From the NCBI RefSeq assembly GCF_002278135.3, contig NZ_CP029425.2, positions 5,370,001 to 5,434,000 on the forward strand: a DNA stretch of 64,000 nt, written 5' to 3'. Shown one piece after another: positions 34,427 to 44,258 of the stretch. The DNA is from Bradyrhizobium ottawaense. GTDB taxonomy: Bacteria > Pseudomonadota > Alphaproteobacteria > Rhizobiales > Xanthobacteraceae. The notes below the pieces were generated by a model. That model was not told where the DNA came from. It saw only the letters and a list, made by a program, of their open reading frames with translations, and made no database searches. The stretch's first letter is position 1, and every line of letters starts with the position of its first letter. The position numbers and the translations under genes were made by a program.

Positions 34427-35404
34427 CTACGGCCCCGCCTTCCCCTTTCGCGCGGCGATCTGCTGTAGCGCCCAGCGCGCGTTCTTGCGCACGTCAGGAT
34501 CGGGATCGTTGGCGATCACCACGAGGTATGCCTCGCCTTCGGGGGCGGCGATCTCGCCGAGCGCGGCAGCCGCCTCCTTCCGCAAATTCGCCTGCTCATG
34601 GTTGATGCAGTTACCGATCGGACGCAGGGCGCGCTCGACCTTCATCTTGCCGAGGCTGCGGATCGCCTTGAGCCGAACCTGCCAAAACCCGTCGGCAAGT
34701 GAGACGATAAGCTGATCGGCGGCGAGCGAGCCGTTGACGTTGAGCCCGAGCGTCTCGGCTGCCATCTCCCGGACCATCCAGTCCGCATCCCTGAGTGCGC
34801 GGGTGATCGTCTCGGCCGCAGGCTTCATCTGGGAGAAGGCGAGCGCGCTCACCGCGGCGCGGCGCACATGGGCGTCGGGATCATGGATCAGCGCGGTGAG
34901 CGCCGGGATCGACTCTTCGAGCTTCAGGAAACCGATGACGCCGATCGCCTGCACGCGGACGGCCGCGTCACCATCCTGGAGCGCTTCCAGCGCAGGCTTC
35001 AGCGTGTCCTTGCGGCGCAACTCCTTGAGCGCGCGCAGCGCGCCCATGCGGACGAAGGCGTGGGCATGCTTGACCAGCGGCAGGATGATTTCGGCGCAAG
35101 CGGGATCCTTGAATTCGGCCAAACTGTCGGCTGCGGCCGACGCCACGATCCGCTCGGGATCGACGAGCAGCTTGACCAGTGCATTCGCCGCTTCCCGCCC
35201 GTCGAACTCGCCGAGCGCCATCGCGACCTGCTGGCGCACGCCCGCGTCGGGATCAGACACCATGTTGGCGAGATGCGCGACCGCAACCGGATCGCCGGAA
35301 TGGCCGAGCGCAATGATGGCGACGCGCCGCTCGGCCGGATCTGCGGCTTGCAACCGCTCGTCGGCGTCTTCGAGATCGTCATAGGATTCGAACGGACTCG
35401 ACAT
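34427..35404 (-). CDS. HEAT-repeat protein of the AprA-like cluster
   Basis: 325 residues, start ATG at 35404 (MSSPFESYDDLEDADERLQA) two bp after the ferredoxin stop, with TTGAGG upstream. Residues 20-315 are a run of about nine HEAT or PBS-lyase-type repeats, each near 30 residues (for example VAIIALGHSGDPVAVAHLAN, VQAIGVIGFLKLEESIPALT). Such repeats make a curved helical scaffold for protein binding; the lyase relatives act on bilin cofactors, but no catalytic residues are apparent here. It is the third gene of the flavoprotein-ferredoxin-HEAT operon and probably holds that complex together or serves an assembly role. Confidence 0.85.
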   Translation of the reverse strand: MSSPFESYDDLEDADERLQAADPAERRVAIIALGHSGDPVAVAHLANMVSDPDAGVRQQVAMALGEFDGREAANALVKLLVDPERIVASAAADSLAEFKDPACAEIILPLVKHAHAFVRMGALRALKELRRKDTLKPALEALQDGDAAVRVQAIGVIGFLKLEESIPALTALIHDPDAHVRRAAVSALAFSQMKPAAETITRALRDADWMVREMAAETLGLNVNGSLAADQLIVSLADGFWQVRLKAIRSLGKMKVERALRPIGNCINHEQANLRKEAAAALGEIAAPEGEAYLVVIANDPDPDVRKNARWALQQIAARKGKAGP

Positions 35405-35406
35405 GA

Positions 35407-35640
35407 CTACCTCAAGAGATAGGGAATGTTCACGGTGACGGCGCCGGTCGGGCAATCGGCCTCGCAGGGCATGCAGTACCAGCACTCGTCATAGGCCATG
35501 TAGGCCTTGTTGGTCATGTCGCTGATGCGGAGCACGTCGAGCGGGCAGACGTCGACGCAGACGGTGCAGCCCTTGTCGGCGATGCATTTGGCGTCGTCGA
35601 CGACCACCGGGACCGACGTCTGATAGGACGCGAGAGGCAT
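35407..35640 (-). CDS. Two-cluster [4Fe-4S] ferredoxin
   Basis: 77 residues with two cluster motifs: CIADKGCTVCVDVCP and CWYCMPCEADCP. The first has an extended Cys spacing as in the beta subunit of adenylylsulfate reductase (AprB), though the protein lacks the AprB C-terminal extension. It starts at the ATG at 35640 and lies between the flavoprotein and the HEAT-repeat gene, so it almost certainly passes electrons to or from the AprA-like flavoprotein. Cytoplasmic. Confidence 0.92.
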   Translation of the reverse strand: MPLASYQTSVPVVVDDAKCIADKGCTVCVDVCPLDVLRISDMTNKAYMAYDECWYCMPCEADCPTGAVTVNIPYLLR

Positions 35641-35672
35641 CGTAGATCTCCTGTTGCTTGTCGTTCGATGGA

Positions 35673-37415
35673 TCAGGCGGTCGCGCGGATGCGCTGCTTG
35701 TCGTAGAGGTCCTTCTCGTCGTCCGCGATCGGGACGACATAGGGTTCGACCGCGCGCTTCTCACTGGTCATCCTGCCGTTCTGTTTGCTCAGCAGGGTGT
35801 GGCAGAACCAGTTCTCGTTGTCCTTCTCCGGGAAATCCGTGCGCCAGTGATAGAGGCCCCAGCGGCTCTCCTCGCGATACAAAGAGGCATGTACCGCCAT
35901 GTCGGCGCAGTCCATGATCGACTGCACTTCAAGGGCGCGGAGCAGCTCGTGTGCGTTACGTGCGATCATATGCTCCTGCATGTCTTGCCGCGCCTCGGCG
36001 AGGCGGCGCATGCCGAGCTCGTATTTGCGCGTGACCTTCGGCGGCTGGAGATAGTCGTTGACCAGGCGCCGCGTCTTGTACTCGACCTGGTTCGGCGGAA
36101 TGCCGTCCTCGCGCCTGGTCGGCGCCATCACGCGGTCGCGCTCCCTGGCCACGTCGGCGGCATCGAACTCCGCGAAGTCGTGGCTGTCGGCGAACTCCAT
36201 CGCGTCGATGCCGGCCACCGCGCCGTTGGTGAAGGCGCCGAGCATGTAATTGTGCGGCACGCTCGCCATGTCGCCGGCGGCGTAGAGGCCGGGCACGGTG
36301 GTGCGCGCATTGTCGTCGACGAACACGCCGGAGGCGCTATGGCCGGAGCAAAAGCCTATCTCGGAGATGTGCATCTCGATCGAATCGTTGCGGTAATCGA
36401 CCCCGCGTCCCTGCTGGAACAGGCCACGCGTCGGCCGCTCCACCTTGTGCAGCGTTGATTCGATTTCCGAGATCGTATCCGGGTGGAGATGCTTGAGCTG
36501 GAGGAACACCGGGCCCTTACCCGACAGCAGCTCGTTGTAGAATTCGAGCATCATCTGTCCGGACCAGTAGTCGCATTCGATAAAGCGCGATCCCTCGTTG
36601 TTGGCGGTAAAGGCGCCGAAGGGACCGGCGACATAGGCGCATGCGGGACCGTTGTAATCCTTGATCAGCGGATTGATCTGGTAGCATTCGAGGTTCGCAA
36701 GCGCGGCGCCGGCGTGATAGGCCATCGAATAGCCATCGCCGGAATTGGCAGCATTCTCGTAGGTTCCGAACATGTAGCCGGAGGTCGGCAGACCCAGGCG
36801 GCCGGCCGCGCCCATGCACAGGATGACGGCCTTGGCCTTGATCACCAGCATCTCTGCGGTACGCGTATTGACGCTGACCGCGCCAGCGATGCGCCCATCT
36901 GCCGACTTGAGCAGTCGCGTCGCCATGTAGCGATTGGAGATCAGGATTCGGGCGCGCCGGAGCTGGCGGTAGAGCGCCTTTTTCACTGTCTCGCCGTTCG
37001 GCATCGGCAGCACGTAGGTGCCGATATGATGCACCTTCTTGACGGCGTAGTCGCCGTTCTCGTTCTTCAGGAAGCGGATGCCGAAGCTGTCGAGCTCTTC
37101 GATGATGCCGTAGCAGTTCTGCGCGTACTTATAGACCGCCTTCTGGTCGACGATGCCGTCATTGGCGATGGTGATTTCCTTGGTGTACTGCTCCGGTGTC
37201 GCATAGCCGGGGATGACGGCATTATTCAAGCCGTCCATGCCCATCGAGATCGCGCCGGAGCGCTTGACGTTGGCCTTTTCGAGCAGGACGACATTGGCCT
37301 TCGGATTCTTCAGCTTCGCCTTCAGTGCAGCCATCGGGCCGGCTGTGCCGCCGCCGATGACCAGCACATCGCAGGAAACCTCCGAAAGTCCGTCGACGAT
37401 CTGATCTAGTGCCAT
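35673..37415 (-). CDS. AprA-like FAD flavoprotein (fumarate reductase/adenylylsulfate reductase family)
   Basis: 580 residues, starting at MALDQIVDGLSEVSCDVLVI (ATG 37415, AGGAG upstream). The FAD-binding Rossmann motif is CDVLVIGGGTAGPMAALKAK. Further motifs are LLEKANVKRSGAISMGMDG, PGLYAAGDMASVPHNYMLGA and the late ESRWGLYHWRTDFPEKDN, which are typical of adenylylsulfate reductase alpha chains. The family oxidises or reduces sulfur or carboxylate compounds with FAD. Here it is paired with a small AprB-like ferredoxin and a HEAT protein, not with a true AprB or sulfate adenylyltransferase, so a reaction other than classical APS reduction is likely. The neighbouring sulfonate-type importer points to a sulfur- or nitrogen-containing organic substrate. 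Confidence 0.9.
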   Translation of the reverse strand: MALDQIVDGLSEVSCDVLVIGGGTAGPMAALKAKLKNPKANVVLLEKANVKRSGAISMGMDGLNNAVIPGYATPEQYTKEITIANDGIVDQKAVYKYAQNCYGIIEELDSFGIRFLKNENGDYAVKKVHHIGTYVLPMPNGETVKKALYRQLRRARILISNRYMATRLLKSADGRIAGAVSVNTRTAEMLVIKAKAVILCMGAAGRLGLPTSGYMFGTYENAANSGDGYSMAYHAGAALANLECYQINPLIKDYNGPACAYVAGPFGAFTANNEGSRFIECDYWSGQMMLEFYNELLSGKGPVFLQLKHLHPDTISEIESTLHKVERPTRGLFQQGRGVDYRNDSIEMHISEIGFCSGHSASGVFVDDNARTTVPGLYAAGDMASVPHNYMLGAFTNGAVAGIDAMEFADSHDFAEFDAADVARERDRVMAPTRREDGIPPNQVEYKTRRLVNDYLQPPKVTRKYELGMRRLAEARQDMQEHMIARNAHELLRALEVQSIMDCADMAVHASLYREESRWGLYHWRTDFPEKDNENWFCHTLLSKQNGRMTSEKRAVEPYVVPIADDEKDLYDKQRIRATA

Positions 37416-37484
37416 CGCTTGCTCCTGGTTCGCCGGCATTTCCGGCGCCTTTGCATCAGATTTGTTCAGAGGGCGTCGCGGCGA

Positions 37485-37499
37485 TAGCAATTAGTTGTC
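37485..37499. promoter_or_regulatory. CAACTA-type box upstream of the flavoprotein operon (site B)
   Basis: TAGCAATTAGTTGTC lies 70-84 bp upstream of the flavoprotein start. Thirteen of its 15 bases match site A at 38418-38432 read in the opposite direction. It is a candidate binding site for the nearby Crp/Fnr regulator. Confidence 0.5.
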
Positions 37500-37519
37500 G
37501 ACGGGACGCGATTTGCCCC

Positions 37520-38293
37520 TCAGCGCTCGACGAACGCCTTTTCGATCACGAAATGCCCGGGCTGGCTGTGGTTCCCCTCGACGAAGCCACGCGCGGAGAA
37601 CATTGCGGGCAGTTCCTCCAGCATCGCCGGGCTGCCGCAGAGCATGATGCGGTCGGTCTCGATATCGAGGCTGCCCTGCCCGATATCGTCGAAGAGCTGG
37701 CCCGAGGCGATCAGATCGGTGATGCGGCCACGATTCCTGAACGGCTCTCGGGTGACCGTCGGATAGTAGACGAGGTTGTCGCGGATCAGCGGTCCGAAGA
37801 ACTCGTGATTGCGGAGGCCTTCGATCACGTGCTCGCCATAGGCGAGCTCAGAGACTTGGCGGCAGCCATGGGCGAGCACGATCGTCTCATAGTTCTCGTA
37901 GACGTCGGGGTCCTTGATCAGGCTGGCGAACGGCGCGAGCCCCGTGCCGGTCGAAAGCAGCAGGAGGCGCTTTCCCGGAATGAGGTTGCCGGTGATCAAC
38001 GTCCCCGTCGCCTTGCGGCCGACCAGGATGATGTCGCCTTCGCTGATCTTCTGGAGGCGCGAGGTCAGCGGACCGTCCTGCACCTTGATCGAGAAGAACT
38101 CGAGCGCTTCCTCGTGATTGGCACTCGCCATGCTGTAGGCCCGCATCAAGGGCTTGCCCTCGACCTCCAGCCCGATCATGGCGAACTGGCCGTTCTGGAA
38201 GCGAAAGCCGGGATCGCGCGTCGCGGTAAAGCTGAACAGGGACTCGGTCCAGTGCCGGACCGACAGAACCGTCTCTTTCTGAAATGCGCTCAT
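37520..38293 (-). CDS. fpr: Ferredoxin-NADP reductase
   Basis: 257 residues, ATG at 38293 (MSAFQKETVLSVRHWTESLF) with GGAG five bases upstream. FAD-binding motif RAYSMASANHEE, NADPH-binding region LLLLSTGTGLAPFASLIKDP, and the C-terminus VEGNHSQPGHFVIEKAFVER fit bacterial class I ferredoxin-NADP reductases. It would move electrons between NADPH and a ferredoxin, most likely the two-cluster ferredoxin at 35407. Two candidate operator sites lie in the 184-bp region shared with the divergent DUF971 gene. Confidence 0.92.
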   Translation of the reverse strand: MSAFQKETVLSVRHWTESLFSFTATRDPGFRFQNGQFAMIGLEVEGKPLMRAYSMASANHEEALEFFSIKVQDGPLTSRLQKISEGDIILVGRKATGTLITGNLIPGKRLLLLSTGTGLAPFASLIKDPDVYENYETIVLAHGCRQVSELAYGEHVIEGLRNHEFFGPLIRDNLVYYPTVTREPFRNRGRITDLIASGQLFDDIGQGSLDIETDRIMLCGSPAMLEELPAMFSARGFVEGNHSQPGHFVIEKAFVER

Positions 38294-38355
38294 CTCGTCT
38301 CCGTGCCTCGATCGCGCACAAGGTTTCGGAGAGACGGGCATCCGGCAACGCGGAA

Positions 38356-38382
38356 GTGAAACTCCCGGTCGATTAGTTTCAC
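38356..38382. promoter_or_regulatory. Inverted repeat with CAACTA-type core (site D)
   Basis: GTGAAACT and AGTTTCAC form a perfect 8-bp inverted repeat with an 11-bp spacer. The reverse strand contains AACTAATCGAC, identical over 11 bases to site C at 39829-39843. It lies 63-89 bp upstream of the ferredoxin-NADP reductase start. Confidence 0.5.
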
Positions 38383-38417
38383 ATTTCGCGGGCGATGATC
38401 GGAGAGCGGCCGGCGTT

Positions 38418-38432
38418 GGCAACTAGTTGCTA
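38418..38432. promoter_or_regulatory. CAACTA-type box upstream of the DUF971 gene (site A)
   Basis: GGCAACTAGTTGCTA contains the perfect 12-bp palindrome GCAACTAGTTGC (38419-38430), 46-60 bp upstream of the DUF971 start. It is the most symmetric of the four related sites and is placed where an activator would be expected. Confidence 0.5.
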
Positions 38433-38477
38433 TTCGCACTCGTCTGCAACGCCGTAGAAGAGGGTCGGAGATACGTC

Positions 38478-38780
38478 ATGACCATGACCTTGGTAGTACC
38501 GACCGTGGCCGACTACGAAGCCAGCGCCGATCTGGCGATGCTCCTCGTCCGCACCACGCTGGACGACGCGCTGAGCGTCCCTGCCGAAAAACTTCGCCTC
38601 TCCTGCAAATGCGCCCACTGCATCCGTGCCCGCTTCGACGGCCGTTTCCCCGAACACTTTCCCGGCATCGCCATCACCGAGATCGGCGATCTCGGCTATG
38701 GGCTGAACATCTCGTTCTCGGACGGACATAACAGGGGGATTTATCCGAAGACGTATTTGCTGAGCCTGGCGGGGCGCTGA
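38478..38780 (+). CDS. DUF971 (GBBH-like) domain protein
   Basis: 100 residues. The conserved DUF971 core is evident: LRLSCKCAHCIRARFDG, FPGIAITEIGDLGYGLNISF and SDGHNRGIYPKTYLLSL. The same domain forms the N-terminal, zinc-binding part of gamma-butyrobetaine hydroxylase and is also found near Fe-S assembly proteins; CKCAHC could bind zinc or iron. The start at 38478 has GGAG upstream. It is divergent from the ferredoxin-NADP reductase gene and precedes the Crp/Fnr gene. The role in this cluster is unknown; an Fe-S or metal-handling accessory is a reasonable guess. Confidence 0.88.
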   Translation: MTMTLVVPTVADYEASADLAMLLVRTTLDDALSVPAEKLRLSCKCAHCIRARFDGRFPEHFPGIAITEIGDLGYGLNISFSDGHNRGIYPKTYLLSLAGR

Positions 38781-38794
38781 CCCGCATCCACACT

Positions 38795-38895
38795 CGTCAT
38801 TCCGGGGCGCCCGAAGGGCCAGCCCGGAATCCATAACCCCCGCTCGTGGCTATTGATTCCGGGCCTGCGCGCTTTGCGCGCATCCCGGAATGACG
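38795..38895. repeat. Two-hairpin palindromic intergenic repeat (ATTCCGGG units)
   Basis: Four copies of ATTCCGGG/CCCGGAAT make two tandem stem-loops: 38799-38830 (with an inner GCCC-GAA-GGGC stem) and 38856-38891 (with an inner TGCGCGC-TTT-GCGCGCA stem), the whole flanked by CGTC/GACG. Palindromes of this kind are abundant between genes in Bradyrhizobium and Rhodopseudomonas relatives. It follows the DUF971 stop by 14 bp and may end that transcript. Confidence 0.75.
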
Positions 38896-38971
38896 CAGGA
38901 AGTTTGCGCTTTCCCATCTGGCACGGACATTGCTCCTCTTTAGAACGATTTGAACGTTCCGGAGGCAGATG

Positions 38972-39745
38972 ATGTTGCAGGCGGCGAATGCGGTTCGCGG
39001 GGCTGTTCCCCCGGCAGTCCGGCCAGCAGGCAGCTCCTCGCTGCTGCTCACCGAGAACCAGCAATGGATCGGCGGGCCCCCGCCGCTGATGGATAAGCTC
39101 TCCCCGCGCGAGCGGGAGCAGGTGCTGAAGCAAGGCCGCCGAAAAGTGCTCAACCGCGGCCAGACGCTGTTCAGCCAGGGGGGCAAGCATGACGGCATCT
39201 GGCTGATCGAGAGCGGCCGTATCCGGGTGTTCTACACCTCCCCACTCGGGCGCGAGATCACGCTGGCCTATTGGCATGTCGGCAATTTCGTCGGCGGGCC
39301 GGAAGTGTTCGAGGGCACGGTGCATCAATGGTCCGGTGTTGCGTCCAGCAATTGCAGCGTCGTGCACCTTCCCGGAAAGGAGCTGCGATCCCTTGCCGTC
39401 GAGATCCCGAACCTCGCGATCGGCCTGATCGAAGGCCTGACGTTCAAGGGCAAATGCTATTCGGCTCTCGCCCAGATGCTGGGAACGCGCTCGATCACGC
39501 AGCGCCTTTCGCATTTGCTGCTGCATCTCGTCGAGCTCTATGGTGTTGAGGACGCCGACGGCAGGGTGATCGCGGCCGCCTTTACCCATGCCGACATCGC
39601 GCACATGGTCGGTGCCACCAGGCAATGGGTCACGATCAGCCTGAAGCGGATGCAGGAGAAGGGAATCGTGCAAACCAGGCGGTCACAGATCGTGGTCTGC
39701 CGGACGGACGTGCTGGAGGAGATGCGCGGCCACGCATCCGATTGA
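38972..39745 (+). CDS. Crp/Fnr family transcriptional regulator
   Basis: 257 residues, ATG at 38972 with GGAGG six bases upstream (an ATG three bases earlier is also possible). A cyclic-nucleotide-binding-type beta barrel occupies about residues 40-160 (LFSQGGKHDGIWLIESGRIR), then a dimer helix, then the helix-turn-helix FTHADIAHMVGATRQWVTIS. The recognition helix has RQWV in place of the RETV seen in CRP, so its operator should differ from TTGAT/TGTGA types. No N-terminal Cys cluster for an FNR-type [4Fe-4S] centre is present. It lies between the redox genes and the importer and is the likely regulator of the four CAACTA-type sites. Confidence 0.9.
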   Translation: MLQAANAVRGAVPPAVRPAGSSSLLLTENQQWIGGPPPLMDKLSPREREQVLKQGRRKVLNRGQTLFSQGGKHDGIWLIESGRIRVFYTSPLGREITLAYWHVGNFVGGPEVFEGTVHQWSGVASSNCSVVHLPGKELRSLAVEIPNLAIGLIEGLTFKGKCYSALAQMLGTRSITQRLSHLLLHLVELYGVEDADGRVIAAAFTHADIAHMVGATRQWVTISLKRMQEKGIVQTRRSQIVVCRTDVLEEMRGHASD

Positions 39746-39828
39746 CCGAATTTGCGACCATCGCCCCTGCTCAGGCAAGCGGCTTTATAGTGCAGAACTG
39801 CTCAAGGAGTATGCAATCAGCCTTTCCC

Positions 39829-39843
39829 GGCAACTAATCGACT
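39829..39843. promoter_or_regulatory. CAACTA-type box upstream of the importer operon (site C)
   Basis: GGCAACTAATCGACT lies 84-98 bp upstream of the binding-protein start. It shares GACAACTAAT-type sequence with site B and 11 identical bases with site D. The downstream half is less symmetric. Confidence 0.45.
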
Positions 39844-39926
39844 GCAGCGCTCATTCCGGATTTGCCCTGTCCGGGCCCTCACCCAATCATGGCAACCACA
39901 GCACATCCAACCGAATGAGGATGAGA

Positions 39927-41348
39927 ATGGTCCGCCGTCTTTCCACGCTCTCGATCGCGACGTCGGTGACGTCGCTTGCCCTTCTGGTCGCGCAGCCGGC
40001 CTCGGCGGAAACCGTCACGCTTGGCATCGGAACGCAGGATACGACAACCAACACGGTGACCGCCGGTGTCGTCATCCGCCAATTGCACCTGCTCGAAAAA
40101 TATCTGCCGAAGGACGGCAAATACAGCAACATCAAGTTCGAGCTGGAGTGGCAGAACTTCACCTCCGGCCCGCCCGTCACCAACGCGATGATGGCGAACA
40201 AGCTGCAGATCGGCATGATGGGCGACTATCCGCTGATCGTGAACGGCTTCACCTTCGAAAGTAACCCCGAAAGCAAGAGCCGGCTGATCGGTATCGCCGC
40301 CTACAGCCTGTCCGGCTCCGGCAACGGCATCGTCGTTCACAAGGACTCGCCCTATTACGATCTCGCTGATCTCAAGGGCAAGCTCGTCAGTGTACCGTTC
40401 GGCTCCGCCGCCCATGGCATGGTGCTCAAGGCGATGCAGGACCGTGGCTACACGTCCGACTTCTTCCAGCTCGTCAGCCAGAGCCCGGAGGTCGGCTCGA
40501 CCAATCTCCAGGAAAAGAAGATCGACGCGCATGCCGACTTCGTTCCCTTCGCCGAGCTGCTGCCGTTCCGCGGCTTCGCGCGGAAGATCTTTGACGGCGT
40601 CGAGACCAACGTACCGACCTTCCACGGCATCGTGGTCCGCACCGATTTCGCCGATAAATACCCGGAGGTCGTCACCGCCTATCTGAAGGCGGTCATTGCC
40701 GCCAATCAGTGGCTGCGCGACGATCCCAAGCTGGCCGCGGAGAAGATCCAGGAATGGACCGGCATCAGCAAGGAAGTGGTGTACATCTTCCTGGGGCCCA
40801 GCGGCAACATGACCACCGATCCCACGGTCAAGCCGGCATTGATCGACGCTGCCACCGCCGACGTCAAGGTTCTGCAAAATCTCGGCCGGATGAAGGAATT
40901 CGATCCGAAAAAATGGGTCGACGATGGCCATATCCGCAAAGCCTATGCCGAGATGAAGCTCGATTACGACGCGCAGCTCGCGAGCACCAAGAATTACGAG
41001 ATCGCCGGCGAAGACACCTTCTGCAAGAAGCCGATCACCGATCCGCGCAAGGCCGGTGAGGTCTGGGTGGATGATGCCGGCATCATGCCGTTTGCGTCCG
41101 CGGCGTGCACCCTGGGGGCCTATGCCGACTTCAAGGCCAAGGGCAAGAAGATCAACGTCGCCTACGTCTTCGACACCACGCGCGGCATCAAGCTGTTCGC
41201 CGACCAGGCCTTCTTCGCCGTCGGCGATGGCGACGTCGCGCCGTTCCTGCTGAAGAAGGACGCCGAAGCCTATGCCGCCAGGATCGGCGGCAAGGTGCTG
41301 GGCTTCGACGACGCGGTGAAGGCGGCGGTCGGCGGAGGCAAGACGTGA
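39927..41348 (+). CDS. ABC substrate-binding protein (NrtA/SsuA type) fused to a C-terminal NosL-like domain
   Basis: 473 residues. Three ATGs lie close together; the one at 39927 has GAGG six bases upstream. A signal peptide (MVRRLSTLSIATSVTSLALL) leads to a periplasmic-binding protein of the nitrate/sulfonate/taurine class (ETVTLGIGTQDTTTNTVTAG, MANKLQIGMMGDYPLIVNGF), residues about 30-350. The last ~105 residues are an extra domain that resembles NosL, the copper protein of nitrous oxide reductase assembly: DPRKAGEVWVDDAGIMPFAS, INVAYVFDTTRGIKLFADQA, FFAVG, and AEAYAARIGGKVLGFDDAV. The usual NosL Cys-Gly-Met site is not kept as such (FCKKPITD is nearest). Permease and ATPase genes follow immediately. 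Confidence 0.8.
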   Translation: MVRRLSTLSIATSVTSLALLVAQPASAETVTLGIGTQDTTTNTVTAGVVIRQLHLLEKYLPKDGKYSNIKFELEWQNFTSGPPVTNAMMANKLQIGMMGDYPLIVNGFTFESNPESKSRLIGIAAYSLSGSGNGIVVHKDSPYYDLADLKGKLVSVPFGSAAHGMVLKAMQDRGYTSDFFQLVSQSPEVGSTNLQEKKIDAHADFVPFAELLPFRGFARKIFDGVETNVPTFHGIVVRTDFADKYPEVVTAYLKAVIAANQWLRDDPKLAAEKIQEWTGISKEVVYIFLGPSGNMTTDPTVKPALIDAATADVKVLQNLGRMKEFDPKKWVDDGHIRKAYAEMKLDYDAQLASTKNYEIAGEDTFCKKPITDPRKAGEVWVDDAGIMPFASAACTLGAYADFKAKGKKINVAYVFDTTRGIKLFADQAFFAVGDGDVAPFLLKKDAEAYAARIGGKVLGFDDAVKAAVGGGKT

Positions 41349-41383
41349 GTAGTCCCGCCATCCTCAGACATCCCGAGGACAGC

Positions 41384-42241
41384 ATGCCGGCAACAGCCAT
41401 TGCAGAGACGGGCGTGGAGCCCGTCGCCACCCCGCCCTCCTTCGGAACGCTCGCGCTGCGCTGGTATCGACTGAACCGCGGCGGCCTGCGCGCGATCGCG
41501 ATCGGCATCACCTCGCTGCTGGCATTCCTGCTGGTCTGGCACCTGCTCACGACCTATCGCGTCGTGTTCTTCGTGCGATTCACCAATGTGCCCTCGCCGC
41601 TCGCGGTCTATGCCAGTTTCACCAAGGCGATCCACGATCCCAAATTCCTGATGCACATCGTCTTGAGCTGCCGGCGCATCCTCGTCGGCTTCTCCCTTGC
41701 AGCCATCGTCGGGGTGCCGCTCGGTCTCGTGATGGGCCGCTTCAAGCTCGTCCATGAGATCATCTTCCCGGTCGCCGAAGTGCTGCGACCGATCCCGGCA
41801 ATCGCCTGGGTGCCGATGGCGATCATGCTGTGGCCGACCAACGAGCAGAGCATCGTCTACATCACCTTCCTCGGCTCGTTCTTCCCGATCCTGGTGAATA
41901 CACTTCACGGCATGACGCTGGTCGATCCCGTGCTGGTGCGCGCAGCACAGTGCCTCGGCGCGCGGGAGCGCTCGATCTTCCGGGAGGTGTATTTTCCGGC
42001 ATCGCTGCCGCACATCTTCACCGGCCTCACGGTCGGCATGGGCGTAGCATGGGTCTCGCTGATCGCGGCCGAGATGATCTCCGGCCAGTACGGCATCGGC
42101 TACTTCACCTGGGAGGCCTATTCGCTGGTCCAGTACGCCGACATCGCGCTCGGCATGATCGCAATCGGCGTTCTCGGCCTGGGATCGAGCCTGCTGATCC
42201 GGGGCGCCGGACAATTGGTGATGCCGTGGAGAGCAAAATGA
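41384..42241 (+). CDS. ABC transporter permease, sulfonate/nitrate/taurine type
   Basis: 285 residues. Either the ATG at 41384 (MPATAIAETGVEPVATPPSF; GAGGA upstream) or an in-frame GTG at 41345 that overlaps the stop of the binding-protein gene is used. Five to six membrane helices are visible (for example AIAIGITSLLAFLLVWHLL, LAAIVGVPLGLVMG). The conserved permease loop EAA-like motif is VRAAQCLGARERSIFREVYF followed by LPHIFTGLTVGMGVAWVSLI. It forms the membrane channel of the importer. Its stop overlaps the ATG of the ATPase gene as ATGA. Confidence 0.92.
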   Translation: MPATAIAETGVEPVATPPSFGTLALRWYRLNRGGLRAIAIGITSLLAFLLVWHLLTTYRVVFFVRFTNVPSPLAVYASFTKAIHDPKFLMHIVLSCRRILVGFSLAAIVGVPLGLVMGRFKLVHEIIFPVAEVLRPIPAIAWVPMAIMLWPTNEQSIVYITFLGSFFPILVNTLHGMTLVDPVLVRAAQCLGARERSIFREVYFPASLPHIFTGLTVGMGVAWVSLIAAEMISGQYGIGYFTWEAYSLVQYADIALGMIAIGVLGLGSSLLIRGAGQLVMPWRAK

Positions 42242-43110
42242 GCGAGATCCCCGCCAAGGCACCGCAAGGCCATATCGACGTCAGGAGCTTCTCCCTCAGC
42301 TATGACGGCATCGAGGGACCGGTCCAGGCGGTCACCGATACGCAGATCCATGTGAAGCCGGGCGAGTTCGTCTCGATCGTCGGGCCCTCCGGCTGCGGAA
42401 AATCGACGCTGCTCAATGCGGTCGCGGGCTTCCTCAAGCCGACCACCGGTATTGTCACCGTCGACGGCGAGCGTGTGAGCGGACCCAGTGCCGAGCGCGG
42501 CATGGTGTTCCAGCAATATTCGCTGTTCCCCTGGAAGACGGTGCGGGAGAACGTCGAATTCGGGCTGAAGATGCGCGGCATGCCTCGCTCGCAGCGTGAG
42601 CGCGCCGCCCGGACGCTGCTCGGGCTGGCGGGCCTGGAGGCTTTCGAGAAGCACTATCCGGAAAAGCTCTCCGGCGGCATGAAGCAGCGCGTCGGCATCG
42701 TCCGCGCGCTCGCCACGGGGCCGAAAGTGCTGTTGCTGGACGAGCCCTTCGGTGCACTCGACGCCCAGACCCGCGTCATCATGCAGCAGATCCTCACCAA
42801 CATGTGGCAACGGCTGAAGATCTCGGTGCTGTTCGTCACCCACGACATCGACGAGGCGATCTTCCTGTCCGACCGGGTCTACTGCATGACCGCGCGCCCC
42901 GGCTCGATCAAGGCGGAGATCCCAATTCCGCTGGAACGGCCGCGACAGCAATCCATGATGATGTCCTCGGAATTTTTGGCGCTGCGCCGCGGGCTGATGT
43001 CCCTGATCCGCGAGGAGAGCCTGAAGGCGATGGGCGGCGAGATCAACGACCTCGGCATGCGCGGATTGAACATCGAGCTGCATGGCCAATCTTTGGCCGA
43101 GGTACTTTAG
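42238..43110 (+). CDS. ABC transporter ATP-binding protein, sulfonate/nitrate/taurine type
   Basis: 290 residues, ATG at 42238 overlapping the permease stop. Walker A GPSGCGKSTLL (about residue 50), Q-loop VFQQYSLFPWKTV, signature LSGGMKQRVGIVRALATG, Walker B VLLLDEPFGALD and the switch His in FVTHDIDEAIFLS are all intact. It powers the importer of the NosL-fused binding protein. The C-terminus has no regulatory extension. It converges on the mandelate-racemase-family gene, 20 bp away. Confidence 0.95.
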   Translation: MSEIPAKAPQGHIDVRSFSLSYDGIEGPVQAVTDTQIHVKPGEFVSIVGPSGCGKSTLLNAVAGFLKPTTGIVTVDGERVSGPSAERGMVFQQYSLFPWKTVRENVEFGLKMRGMPRSQRERAARTLLGLAGLEAFEKHYPEKLSGGMKQRVGIVRALATGPKVLLLDEPFGALDAQTRVIMQQILTNMWQRLKISVLFVTHDIDEAIFLSDRVYCMTARPGSIKAEIPIPLERPRQQSMMMSSEFLALRRGLMSLIREESLKAMGGEINDLGMRGLNIELHGQSLAEVL

Positions 43111-43130: not shown

Positions 43131-44258
43131 CTAGATGCTGCGATAGCGCTCGATAGCTGAAAGATCCGGCACTGTTCCGAGCCCCGGGTCGTCACTCAGC
43201 TGAACCGTGCCTTCGCGCACGTCGACCAGGGAGCCGCAAAACAAATCGCGCAACGGATTGTCGTTGGCGTCGACCTCCAGCCAGCCATCCCCTCCGATGC
43301 CGGCAAGCAGATGAGCCGAGGCAAGCAGTCCAACGCCGCCGCCGAGATAGTGCGGGCAAAACGTCTTGCGCGCGTCGAGGATGTCGCGCGCCAGTCCGAC
43401 ACAGACCGTGAGCCCGCCCCACTTCGCGATGTCCGGCTGAACCACGCCGAGCACGTCCTCGGTCAACACCTGCCTGAAGCCTTCGGCGCTCGAGATGTTC
43501 TCGCCGGCCGCAATCGGCATGTCCGCGCCTGCCCGCAGTCTTAGCCATTCTTCGCGTGGCCGATCGGCGCGGATAGGCTCTTCCAGCCAACGCAGATCGA
43601 ACCCGCCAAGCCGCTCCAGCATCTGAAGCGCCTGTTCGACCGACCAGCCCTGATTGGCATCCGCCGCTAGCATGCCCGCGCCGACGATCTGGCGCAGAGC
43701 CGCGAGGTTGCCGAGGTCGATGTCGGCGCCGAATCCGACCTTCAACTTCAATGCGCGATGACCTCGCTCGAGTGCGGCTTCGGCCGTCTGCGTGGCTCCG
43801 CCGGGATTGATGCCGCTGGCATAGACCTTGATCGTACTGCCGTGCCCCCCGAGCAGCCGCCAGAGCGGCAAGCGCCGACGGCGCGCCGAGAGGTCCCACA
43901 GCGCGAGATCGATGCCCGCGATCGCCTGCGCAAACGGACCGGGTTCGCCGCATTGCAGCGCCAGCACTTCGGTGCCCCTCGTCAGGCTCTCGAAGGCTTG
44001 AGCCGGACCGTCGAATTTGCGCCCGACGAGACCGGGCGCGAGCACCTCGTTCACGAGCCGCGCACGATGCTCCGCACCGGGCGCGGGAAAATTCGACCAG
44101 GCCTCGCCCCACCCCTCGACGCCATCTTCATCGACGGCGCGAATGAAGACGGCGGGGCGGTTGAGCATGCGGCCGAACGACGTCACCACCGGCGTCGCCA
44201 ACGGATAGCGATAGCAGAACGCTTCGATCGAGCGGATGGTGAAGCTGTCAGACGTCAT
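43131..44258 (-). CDS. Mandelate racemase / muconate lactonizing enzyme family protein
   Basis: 375 residues of the enolase superfamily: N-terminal capping domain, then a barrel. Catalytic residues fit the MR subgroup: K173 in KLKVG (171-175), metal ligands D200 (DANQGW), E226 (LEEP) and E253 (GEN), and a His near residue 302 (CPHYLGGG). These enzymes abstract the alpha proton of a carboxylate and usually dehydrate or epimerise sugar acids. It is the last gene of the eight-gene sugar operon starting at 51470, so a sugar acid is the likely substrate. The exact acid is not predictable. Confidence 0.88.
   Translation of the reverse strand: MTSDSFTIRSIEAFCYRYPLATPVVTSFGRMLNRPAVFIRAVDEDGVEGWGEAWSNFPAPGAEHRARLVNEVLAPGLVGRKFDGPAQAFESLTRGTEVLALQCGEPGPFAQAIAGIDLALWDLSARRRRLPLWRLLGGHGSTIKVYASGINPGGATQTAEAALERGHRALKLKVGFGADIDLGNLAALRQIVGAGMLAADANQGWSVEQALQMLERLGGFDLRWLEEPIRADRPREEWLRLRAGADMPIAAGENISSAEGFRQVLTEDVLGVVQPDIAKWGGLTVCVGLARDILDARKTFCPHYLGGGVGLLASAHLLAGIGGDGWLEVDANDNPLRDLFCGSLVDVREGTVQLSDDPGLGTVPDLSAIERYRSI

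Follow-up and report, generated by a model that had tools for sequence, protein, structure and literature searches.

A stretch of 64,000 nucleotides from Bradyrhizobium ottawaense (contig NZ_CP029425.2; here called the window), in a genome of 8.59 Mb, carries at 34427-43110 nine genes that include an ATP-binding cassette (ABC) importer, a flavoprotein and a ferredoxin. We read these genes as an importer-coupled reductive desulfation module, a reading to which our sequence comparisons lend a probability of about 0.5. A shade less secure is the more specific proposal that the flavoprotein is a reductive sulfatase, that is, a ferredoxin-driven enzyme of the AprA family that would convert imported sulfate esters into alcohol and sulfite, and that evolution could swap for an ordinary formylglycine sulfatase served by an importer of the same type. 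That the module desulfurizes some imported sulfo compound is likely. The module itself is real, widespread and apparently uncharacterised, and the open-licence literature that we searched yielded no experimental study of it.

An open reading frame (ORF) check of the window recovered all nine genes at the positions given by an earlier note on this DNA, with matching families:

34427..35401, minus strand: HEAT-repeat protein, 324 amino acids (aa); Pfam HEAT_2, 181 bits
35407..35640, minus strand: two-cluster ferredoxin, 77 aa; eight Cys and a Cys-Trp motif
35673..37490, minus strand: flavin adenine dinucleotide (FAD) subunit resembling AprA and 3'-phosphoadenosine-5'-phosphosulfate (PAPS) reductase; FAD_binding_2/Succ_DH_flav_C, NCBIfam PRK08275
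37520..38422, minus strand: Fpr-type ferredoxin-NADP reductase (FNR); NCBIfam ferredoxin--NADP(+) reductase, 133.6 bits, under the cut-off of 390
38427..38780, plus strand: DUF971 (GBBH-like_N) protein; Pfam, 43.1 bits
38969..39745, plus strand: Crp/Fnr-family regulator; Pfam cNMP_binding and HTH_Crp_2
39915..41348, plus strand: periplasmic binding protein, NMT1, TauA/SsuA-like, with a C-terminal NosL-like domain
41375..42241, plus strand: ABC permease; BPD_transp_1, 88.6 bits
42235..43110, plus strand: ABC ATPase; ABC_tran, 118.4 bits

Going by homologues, the flavoprotein and FNR probably start later than their ORFs, near 37415 (580 aa) and 38293 (257 aa), respectively. Neither ATP sulfurylase nor adenylylsulfate (APS) kinase is among the nine genes; a tRNA search of the window found none, and none of the Rfam families scored up to its gathering threshold there.

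Homologous importers occur with a sulfatase in place of the flavoprotein

Importers homologous to that of the window are found at seven loci without the flavoprotein, accompanied by a type I sulfatase that is probably cytosolic, a formylglycine-generating enzyme (FGE) and SulP (sulfatase and FGE in 7/7; SulP in 7/7, counting a piece of 265 aa in Gordonia). Five of these sister loci belong to the window's genus, three in genomes that lack the flavoprotein and two in genomes that have both kinds of locus. Their gene order is Crp regulator, binding protein, permease, ATPase, then sulfatase, FGE and SulP, and their identity to the window is 57-61% for the Crp regulator, 58-59% for the binding protein, 56-62% for the permease and 57-60% for the ATPase. 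A Paraburkholderia largidicola plasmid carries the same sulfatase set with GntR replacing Crp and a binding protein 55% identical to the window's; on a Gordonia amicalis plasmid the set stands in a different order, with a binding protein at 35% and the SulP piece. The flavoprotein side of the comparison consists of 141 loci (10 plasmid regions, L045-L054; the best 80 of at least 589 relatives; 51 from other scans), which are not independent: many are close kin, and at least one pair (L088 and L192) is the same DNA. No FGE was found near these 141 loci and no flavoprotein in the seven sulfatase stretches; a search of the window's own genome for relatives of the sister sulfatase gave none at E 1e-20.

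The sequence CTPTR is present in all seven sister sulfatases, the other six being 70-87% identical to the one from Paraburkholderia. In three of them the mechanically assigned start lies 51 residues before EPQCTPTR; the open frames of four extend further upstream, and a Met stands at or near that same place in three Bradyrhizobium sulfatases with longer frames. Because no hydrophobic leader is seen there, we take these enzymes to be cytosolic. Pfam matches at the sister loci are Sulfatase, SGSH_C and FGE-sulfatase, and the closest solved chains are O-sulfatases: arylsulfatase, steryl sulfatase, GALNS and arylsulfatase A.

In a tree built from 51 binding proteins, two changes of the sulfatase label are required, and starred branches force both: six of the sulfatase-linked proteins fall within the proteobacterial set linked to the flavoprotein, and that of Gordonia groups with actinobacterial proteins linked to the flavoprotein. 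The two switches hold in a thinned tree with Nonomuraea added (37 rows), where uniting the five sulfatase rows is rejected (log-likelihood difference 129.18; approximately unbiased test, p-AU 5.91e-54). Partner gain and partner loss are indistinguishable on the binding-protein tree. We read the flavoprotein and the sulfatase, two non-homologous enzymes, as serving one kind of imported molecule: both importers are predicted to bind the same kind of ligand, the product being sulfate with the sulfatase and sulfite with the flavoprotein. The sister loci go beyond the earlier note and suggest a sulfate ester.

Type I sulfatases act on O-S or N-S bonds and leave C-S bonds intact, and the exchange of a sulfatase for the flavoprotein beside homologous importers, seen in 7/7 sister loci, thus favours a sulfate ester over a sulfonate. 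It counts against a ferredoxin-dependent desulfonase, which would import an organosulfonate (C-SO3-) and cleave its C-S bond reductively to sulfite without oxygen. We consider such an enzyme unlikely, even though the binding-protein folds are nearest SsuA and TauA, sulfite-linked genes are among the neighbours, genes for luciferase-like or flavin mononucleotide (FMN) monooxygenases lie near some loci, and the idea comes near a published guess for an Acidithiobacillus caldus plasmid operon (excerpt of PMC12375680). Improbable, in turn, is an importer for sulfamate or another sulfo compound (N-SO3-, S-SO3-) that the flavoprotein would cleave by reduction and the sister sulfatase by hydrolysis. 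The three sister sulfatases scanned do also match SGSH_C (N-sulphoglucosamine sulphohydrolase C-terminal) above its cut-off; this is a minor match, however, beside the four named O-sulfatases that are the nearest solved relatives.

The flavoprotein is closest to APS and PAPS reductases

The flavoprotein scores 1059.5 bits against NCBIfam PRK08275 (NF006131), well over the curated cut-off of 587; the family's name, fumarate reductase/succinate dehydrogenase flavoprotein subunit, is an annotation and not a tested function. A second profile, PRK13800, is matched in its first part by the flavoprotein and in its last part by the separate HEAT protein. With a family profile built from 11 flavoproteins of different groups, the best relative in the PDB is the PAPS reductase of Methanothermococcus thermolithotrophicus (MtPAPSR, 8a8o; 282 bits), followed by Archaeoglobus fulgidus AprA (204.5 bits) and Escherichia coli SdhA (134.4 bits). 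An AF2 model of the flavoprotein was poor (mean pLDDT 66.7), and its Foldseek order (PAPSR, AprA, FrdA) was not relied upon.

Residues that bear on FAD chemistry are retained. The equivalent of AprA Asn74 is profile Asn59 and that of MtPAPSR His346 is profile His354, both invariant in 11/11; Asn74 was mapped on 2fja, and we take His346 to correspond to AprA His398, both AprA residues being catalytic. Other positions differ. At the AprA positions Gln145, Arg265 and Phe448 the profile has Val130, Leu245 and Tyr385, each invariant in 11/11, AprA Trp234 is replaced by Tyr, and MtPAPSR Lys120, Arg121 and Ser122 align with Thr, Tyr and Val of a conserved YVLPMP stretch. Arg265 and Phe448 are presumably APS contacts, Arg265 contacting the sulfate. 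Gln145 is described as an APS-contacting residue of AprA, and the mechanism given for MtPAPSR is an attack of N5 on sulfur that yields an FAD-sulfite intermediate (both in excerpts of PMC10322725). The AprA model TIGR02061 is not reached (160.7 bits against a cut-off of 641.75). Together, these alignments make the FAD chemistry of APS and PAPS reductases plausible for the flavoprotein and indicate that their nucleotide site is not kept.

The earlier note had called the flavoprotein AprA-like and named an ordinary fumarate reductase or succinate dehydrogenase as the outcome that would overturn its proposal. The profile scores, highest for PAPS and APS reductases, and the residues rule that outcome out: SdhA His45, which we take to bind FAD covalently, is Gly49 in the profile alignment, and the presumably catalytic His242 is Asn243. 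SdhA Arg286 and Arg399, which we likewise assume to be catalytic, fall within unaligned insertions of the SdhA chain. The same observations weigh on a looser version, in which the flavoprotein would transfer hydride as fumarate reductases do and act on the carbon skeleton of the imported compound, reducing a C=C bond or draining electrons from an oxidation to ferredoxin. Hydride transfer to or from carbon is common in the wider superfamily, and the NCBIfam name agrees; we nevertheless find this quite improbable, since a sulfatase makes no sense as the alternative partner of such an enzyme.

The module recurs across three phyla

The module's genes co-occur far more often than expected by chance. 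Among 60 genomes, the flavoprotein and the HEAT protein occur in the identical 19 (the window's own included); the binding protein occurs in 22, namely the same 19 and three without the flavoprotein. Among 398 genomes of the phylum, the flavoprotein occurs in 21 and the binding protein in 20, all within the 21, the remaining genome (G380) having the flavoprotein without the binding protein. In one genome (G087) the flavoprotein module (L153) and an importer with a Crp regulator (L167, 9049) lie far apart in the chromosome, and no sulfatase was matched beside that importer. The flavoprotein family was absent from 14 control genomes. A scan of one genome per species gave at least 598 pattern matches, at least 589 of them flavoprotein relatives, and 51 plasmid records carry the family; their hosts include rhizobia, Methylocystis, Methylobacterium, Paraburkholderia, Acinetobacter, Acidithiobacillus, Nostoc, Pseudanabaena, Leptolyngbya, Tsukamurella and Nonomuraea. 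Four pattern matches in viral contigs included no true relative.

A ferredoxin lies near all 141 flavoprotein loci, FdxA being excluded from the count, and the HEAT protein near 138; of the other three, one is a fusion of HEAT with the flavoprotein (L052, Tsukamurella) and two lie at the end of a stretch (L064 and L116). Importer genes are nearly as constant (binding protein 117, permease 116, ATPase 118), followed by DUF971 (107, or 110 with Mrp/NBP35 counted). Regulators are GntR (105) or Crp (30), and electron carriers are FNR (34), FdxA (32) or an NfnAB-like fusion (8). Other flanking genes, beyond GntR, FdxA, the NfnAB-like fusion, YeiH and TauE, recur in few loci or in Pseudomonas only. 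In family f65 the binding protein is present in 71 of 248 genomes, and the flavoprotein adjoins it in 20/20 loci fetched from those 71; the family is probably Pseudomonadaceae, going by the DNA similarity of nine of the 20 loci (nearest Pseudomonas at 85-100% identity, the other 11 being at 75-79% to mixed groups).

The flavoprotein, ferredoxin and HEAT protein, usually with the importer and DUF971, thus keep together across Proteobacteria, Cyanobacteria and Actinobacteria, and FNR and Crp are lineage-specific extras. The earlier note's description of the locus as a self-contained uptake-plus-redox module holds up, and so does its proposal under the check that it named, co-occurrence of the genes in other genomes, although not all nine families travel together: FNR and Crp are often absent.

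Electron supply and partner proteins

In 91/91 aligned ferredoxins (90 loci and the window) the eight Cys are conserved, as is the Trp of the Cys-Trp motif. Matches in the PDB are weak (among them polyferredoxins, AprB, photosystem I PsaC and the MtPAPSR beta subunit), and the AprB model is far from reached (32.5 against a cut-off of 135.65). In MtPAPSR the beta subunit holds two [4Fe-4S] clusters by eight Cys, and its Trp42 is proposed for electron transfer (excerpt of PMC10322725). The ferredoxin is, on this comparison, best seen as a short AprB-type beta subunit. Where the earlier note had set a short ferredoxin against AprB, the protein is indeed short but not foreign to the AprAB kind: the beta subunit of MtPAPSR is likewise short, and the Cys-Trp motif is kept.

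An NfnAB-like fusion protein (1153 aa; L049, 10574-14035) matches both subunits of NfnAB, an NAD(P)H:ferredoxin oxidoreductase. It is found also at L055, L057, L062, L075, L079, L127 and L131, in Acidithiobacillus, Thiobacillus and some Burkholderiales, and FNR was not detected at any of the eight loci. Because FNR, FdxA and the fusion all handle low-potential electrons, these neighbours suit a reduction.

The HEAT protein is probably a structural partner of the flavoprotein, a role that the Tsukamurella fusion would fit; in Nonomuraea (L195) the flavoprotein lies within a stop-to-stop frame of 993 aa, and no separate HEAT gene was matched. DUF971, or Mrp in its place, is probably a helper in Fe-S maturation or cluster loading; Mrp and FeS_assembly_P occur in two cyanobacterial loci.

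Genes on the presumed product side

SulP, constant in the sulfatase loci, lies near 1/141 flavoprotein loci. YeiH lies near 27/141 and TauE near at least 5/141, the latter an undercount because TauE was sought by BLAST with few queries; about a fifth of the flavoprotein loci thus carry sulfite-linked genes, and neither YeiH nor TauE was matched in the seven sulfatase stretches. In ten loci of family f65, YeiH is part of the operon, sharing its strand and adjoining FNR or DUF971 (Pfam check on two of the ten). YeiH and TauE precede the operon in a metagenome-assembled genome of Azoarcus (L061) and both occur in Pseudanabaena; Leptolyngbya and Aquabacterium have TauE. A Salmonella yeiH mutant is specifically sulfite-sensitive, and YeiH is called the primary driver of sulfite resistance, with transport only suggested (excerpt of PMC12880088). 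In the window's own genome a sulfite/nitrite reductase domain occurs at four places within two open frames, so sulfite could be used there; the family also covers nitrite reductase.

Relatives of the window (L135-L146 and L174) mostly carry YeiH immediately downstream of the importer ATPase. The window itself has an enolase-superfamily (MR/MLE) gene at that place (43131-44258).

The importer and its NosL-like domain

By structure comparison the binding-protein fold is closest to SsuA and TauA, the matches covering residues 31-357 and barely the C-terminal domain. Every importer component falls below the cut-offs of the named families: the binding protein for SsuA_fam (117 against 163.5) and TauA (70 against 304.25), the permease for SaoP, ntrB and TauC (TauC 119.2 against 342), and the ATPase for SaoA and TauB (TauB 249.9 against 357). 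A selenium-linked Sao transporter, suggested by SaoA and SaoP as top NCBIfam names for ATPase and permease, was rejected on these scores. The NosL match in Pfam is borderline, at 23.4 bits for a cut-off of 24. Some close homologues of the binding protein do carry the NosL label, but both Cys of the domain are present in only 8/21 aligned binding proteins, which leaves the metal link that the earlier note had drawn through NosL unsupported.

That last count also bears on the possibility that no desulfurization takes place, for example that the module detoxifies an imported xenobiotic or metal complex and that the sulfatase link arose because a promiscuous importer was reused. Regulators of ligand-binding types (GntR-UTRA, a LysR-NMT1 fusion, Crp) and amidases beside the module in some loci of the window's family, Methylocystis and Nostoc would suit this explanation. 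Two separate pairings with the same sulfatase cassette and the split of product-side genes between SulP and YeiH/TauE would not, and we hold it to be very improbable.

A proposed mechanism and its relation to known systems

Under the favoured reading of reductive desulfation, the ABC importer would carry into the cytosol a small sulfate ester (R-O-SO3-) or a closely similar sulfo compound. Electrons from NADPH, passed on by FNR, or from another donor, would reduce the two-cluster ferredoxin subunit, whose conserved Trp would relay electrons to the non-covalent FAD of the AprA-like subunit. Attack of the FAD N5 on the sulfonyl sulfur would expel R-OH and form an FAD-sulfite adduct, from which sulfite would be set free. 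This sulfite would feed cysteine synthesis without the ATP-costly activation of sulfate, and any excess could be handled by YeiH or TauE, with HEAT as structural partner and DUF971 or Mrp helping to load the Fe-S clusters. We infer the substrate class, the direction of the reaction, sulfite as product and the electron route from sequence. APS is an easy acceptor because of its energy-rich anhydride bond; reduction of a plain ester would be expected to take a lower potential, and this would account for the ferredoxin and its low-potential donors.

Each of the nearest known systems resembles the module in part. MtPAPSR shares an FAD alpha subunit of the fumarate reductase family and a short beta subunit with two [4Fe-4S] clusters, eight Cys and a relay Trp, and its authors consider reduced ferredoxin a possible donor (excerpt of PMC10322725). 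Unlike MtPAPSR, the module comes with an ABC importer and a HEAT protein, has no ATP sulfurylase or APS kinase gene, and has other residues in place of the Lys-Arg-Ser triplet. AprBA of A. fulgidus (2fja/1jnr) shares the AprA fold family, the Asn74 and His398 equivalents and the Cys-Trp motif; the module differs in its scores far below the AprA and AprB cut-offs, the four differing AprA positions and a beta subunit of only 77 aa. SsuABC and TauABC have in common with it the binding-protein fold, the importer type and uptake of an -SO3- compound coupled to a cytosolic enzyme; the window departs from them in its NosL-like domain, its sub-cut-off scores and its AprA-like reductase partner. AtsRBC-type sulfate-ester importers with sulfatases likewise take up -SO3- compounds. 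The 'ferredoxin/APS reductase/GntR' cargo of A. caldus pTcM1/pAca1.1 is the same operon type (L049 is pTcM1). A 2025 paper on these plasmids names a sulfonate-type transporter and predicts organosulfonate uptake and assimilation; in its excerpted text this is a short prediction, with no HEAT, DUF971, family-wide or sulfatase-exchange analysis (PMC12375680).

Several observations weigh against reductive desulfation as we propose it. Two genomes (G030 and G001) carry both kinds of importer locus, and the binding proteins linked to a sulfatase share only 35-59% identity with that of the window, so the two partners may act on different molecules. The clade for the tree test was chosen after the first tree was seen, and the Gordonia branch is long (a program warning), which weakens the second switch. 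In the flavoprotein, the Gln145 position adjoins an alignment gap and Arg265 is not conserved. No binding protein lies near 24/141 flavoprotein loci, and two of those checked have a different NMT1 protein. At least 109/141 loci have neither YeiH nor TauE detected nearby, and the ten in-operon YeiH cases come from two genera of one family. Within the window's genus YeiH adjacency is weak evidence, because genomes without the flavoprotein also have the orthologue (for example G002, G013, G020 and G026) and that of the window's own genome lies at 5659432, ~250 kb away. Finally, Acidithiobacillus and Thiobacillus, which carry the module, presumably live in sulfate-rich places, which fits plain sulfur scavenging badly.

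Of the sulfur- or nitrogen-compound metabolism that had been suggested for the locus, the sulfur part is supported by kinship with APS and PAPS reductases and by the sulfatase-linked loci; nothing was found for nitrogen, though no special test was aimed at it. To our knowledge, the characterised relatives of the flavoprotein act on APS and PAPS. If our reading is right, sulfite would be obtained directly from an imported ester, saving the ATP of sulfate activation, and a reductive sulfatase would be widespread in soil and plant-associated bacteria, in a family that NCBIfam and the named records examined call fumarate reductase/succinate dehydrogenase despite at least 589 genomic stretches encoding relatives.

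Variation around the module

Four loci of the window's family (L149, 1483-7069; L150-L152) have a pair of amidase genes and another SsuA-like ABC transporter directly upstream of DUF971 and the flavoprotein; the modules of Methylocystis and Nostoc also have a nearby amidase from that NCBIfam family. In two cyanobacterial modules (L051, 6646-8661; L163, 13415-15451) the regulator is apparently a LysR protein fused to an NMT1-like binding domain, as if sensing the importer's ligand; that of L051 has a weak NMT1_2 Pfam match, below the cut-off, and that of L163 is a homologue. On A. caldus p2 (L162, 7106-8104) a shortened binding protein of the module's family has no importer genes annotated beside it, and on a second plasmid (hit H92) the shortened protein overlaps a transposase, an arrangement that suggests decay of the module.

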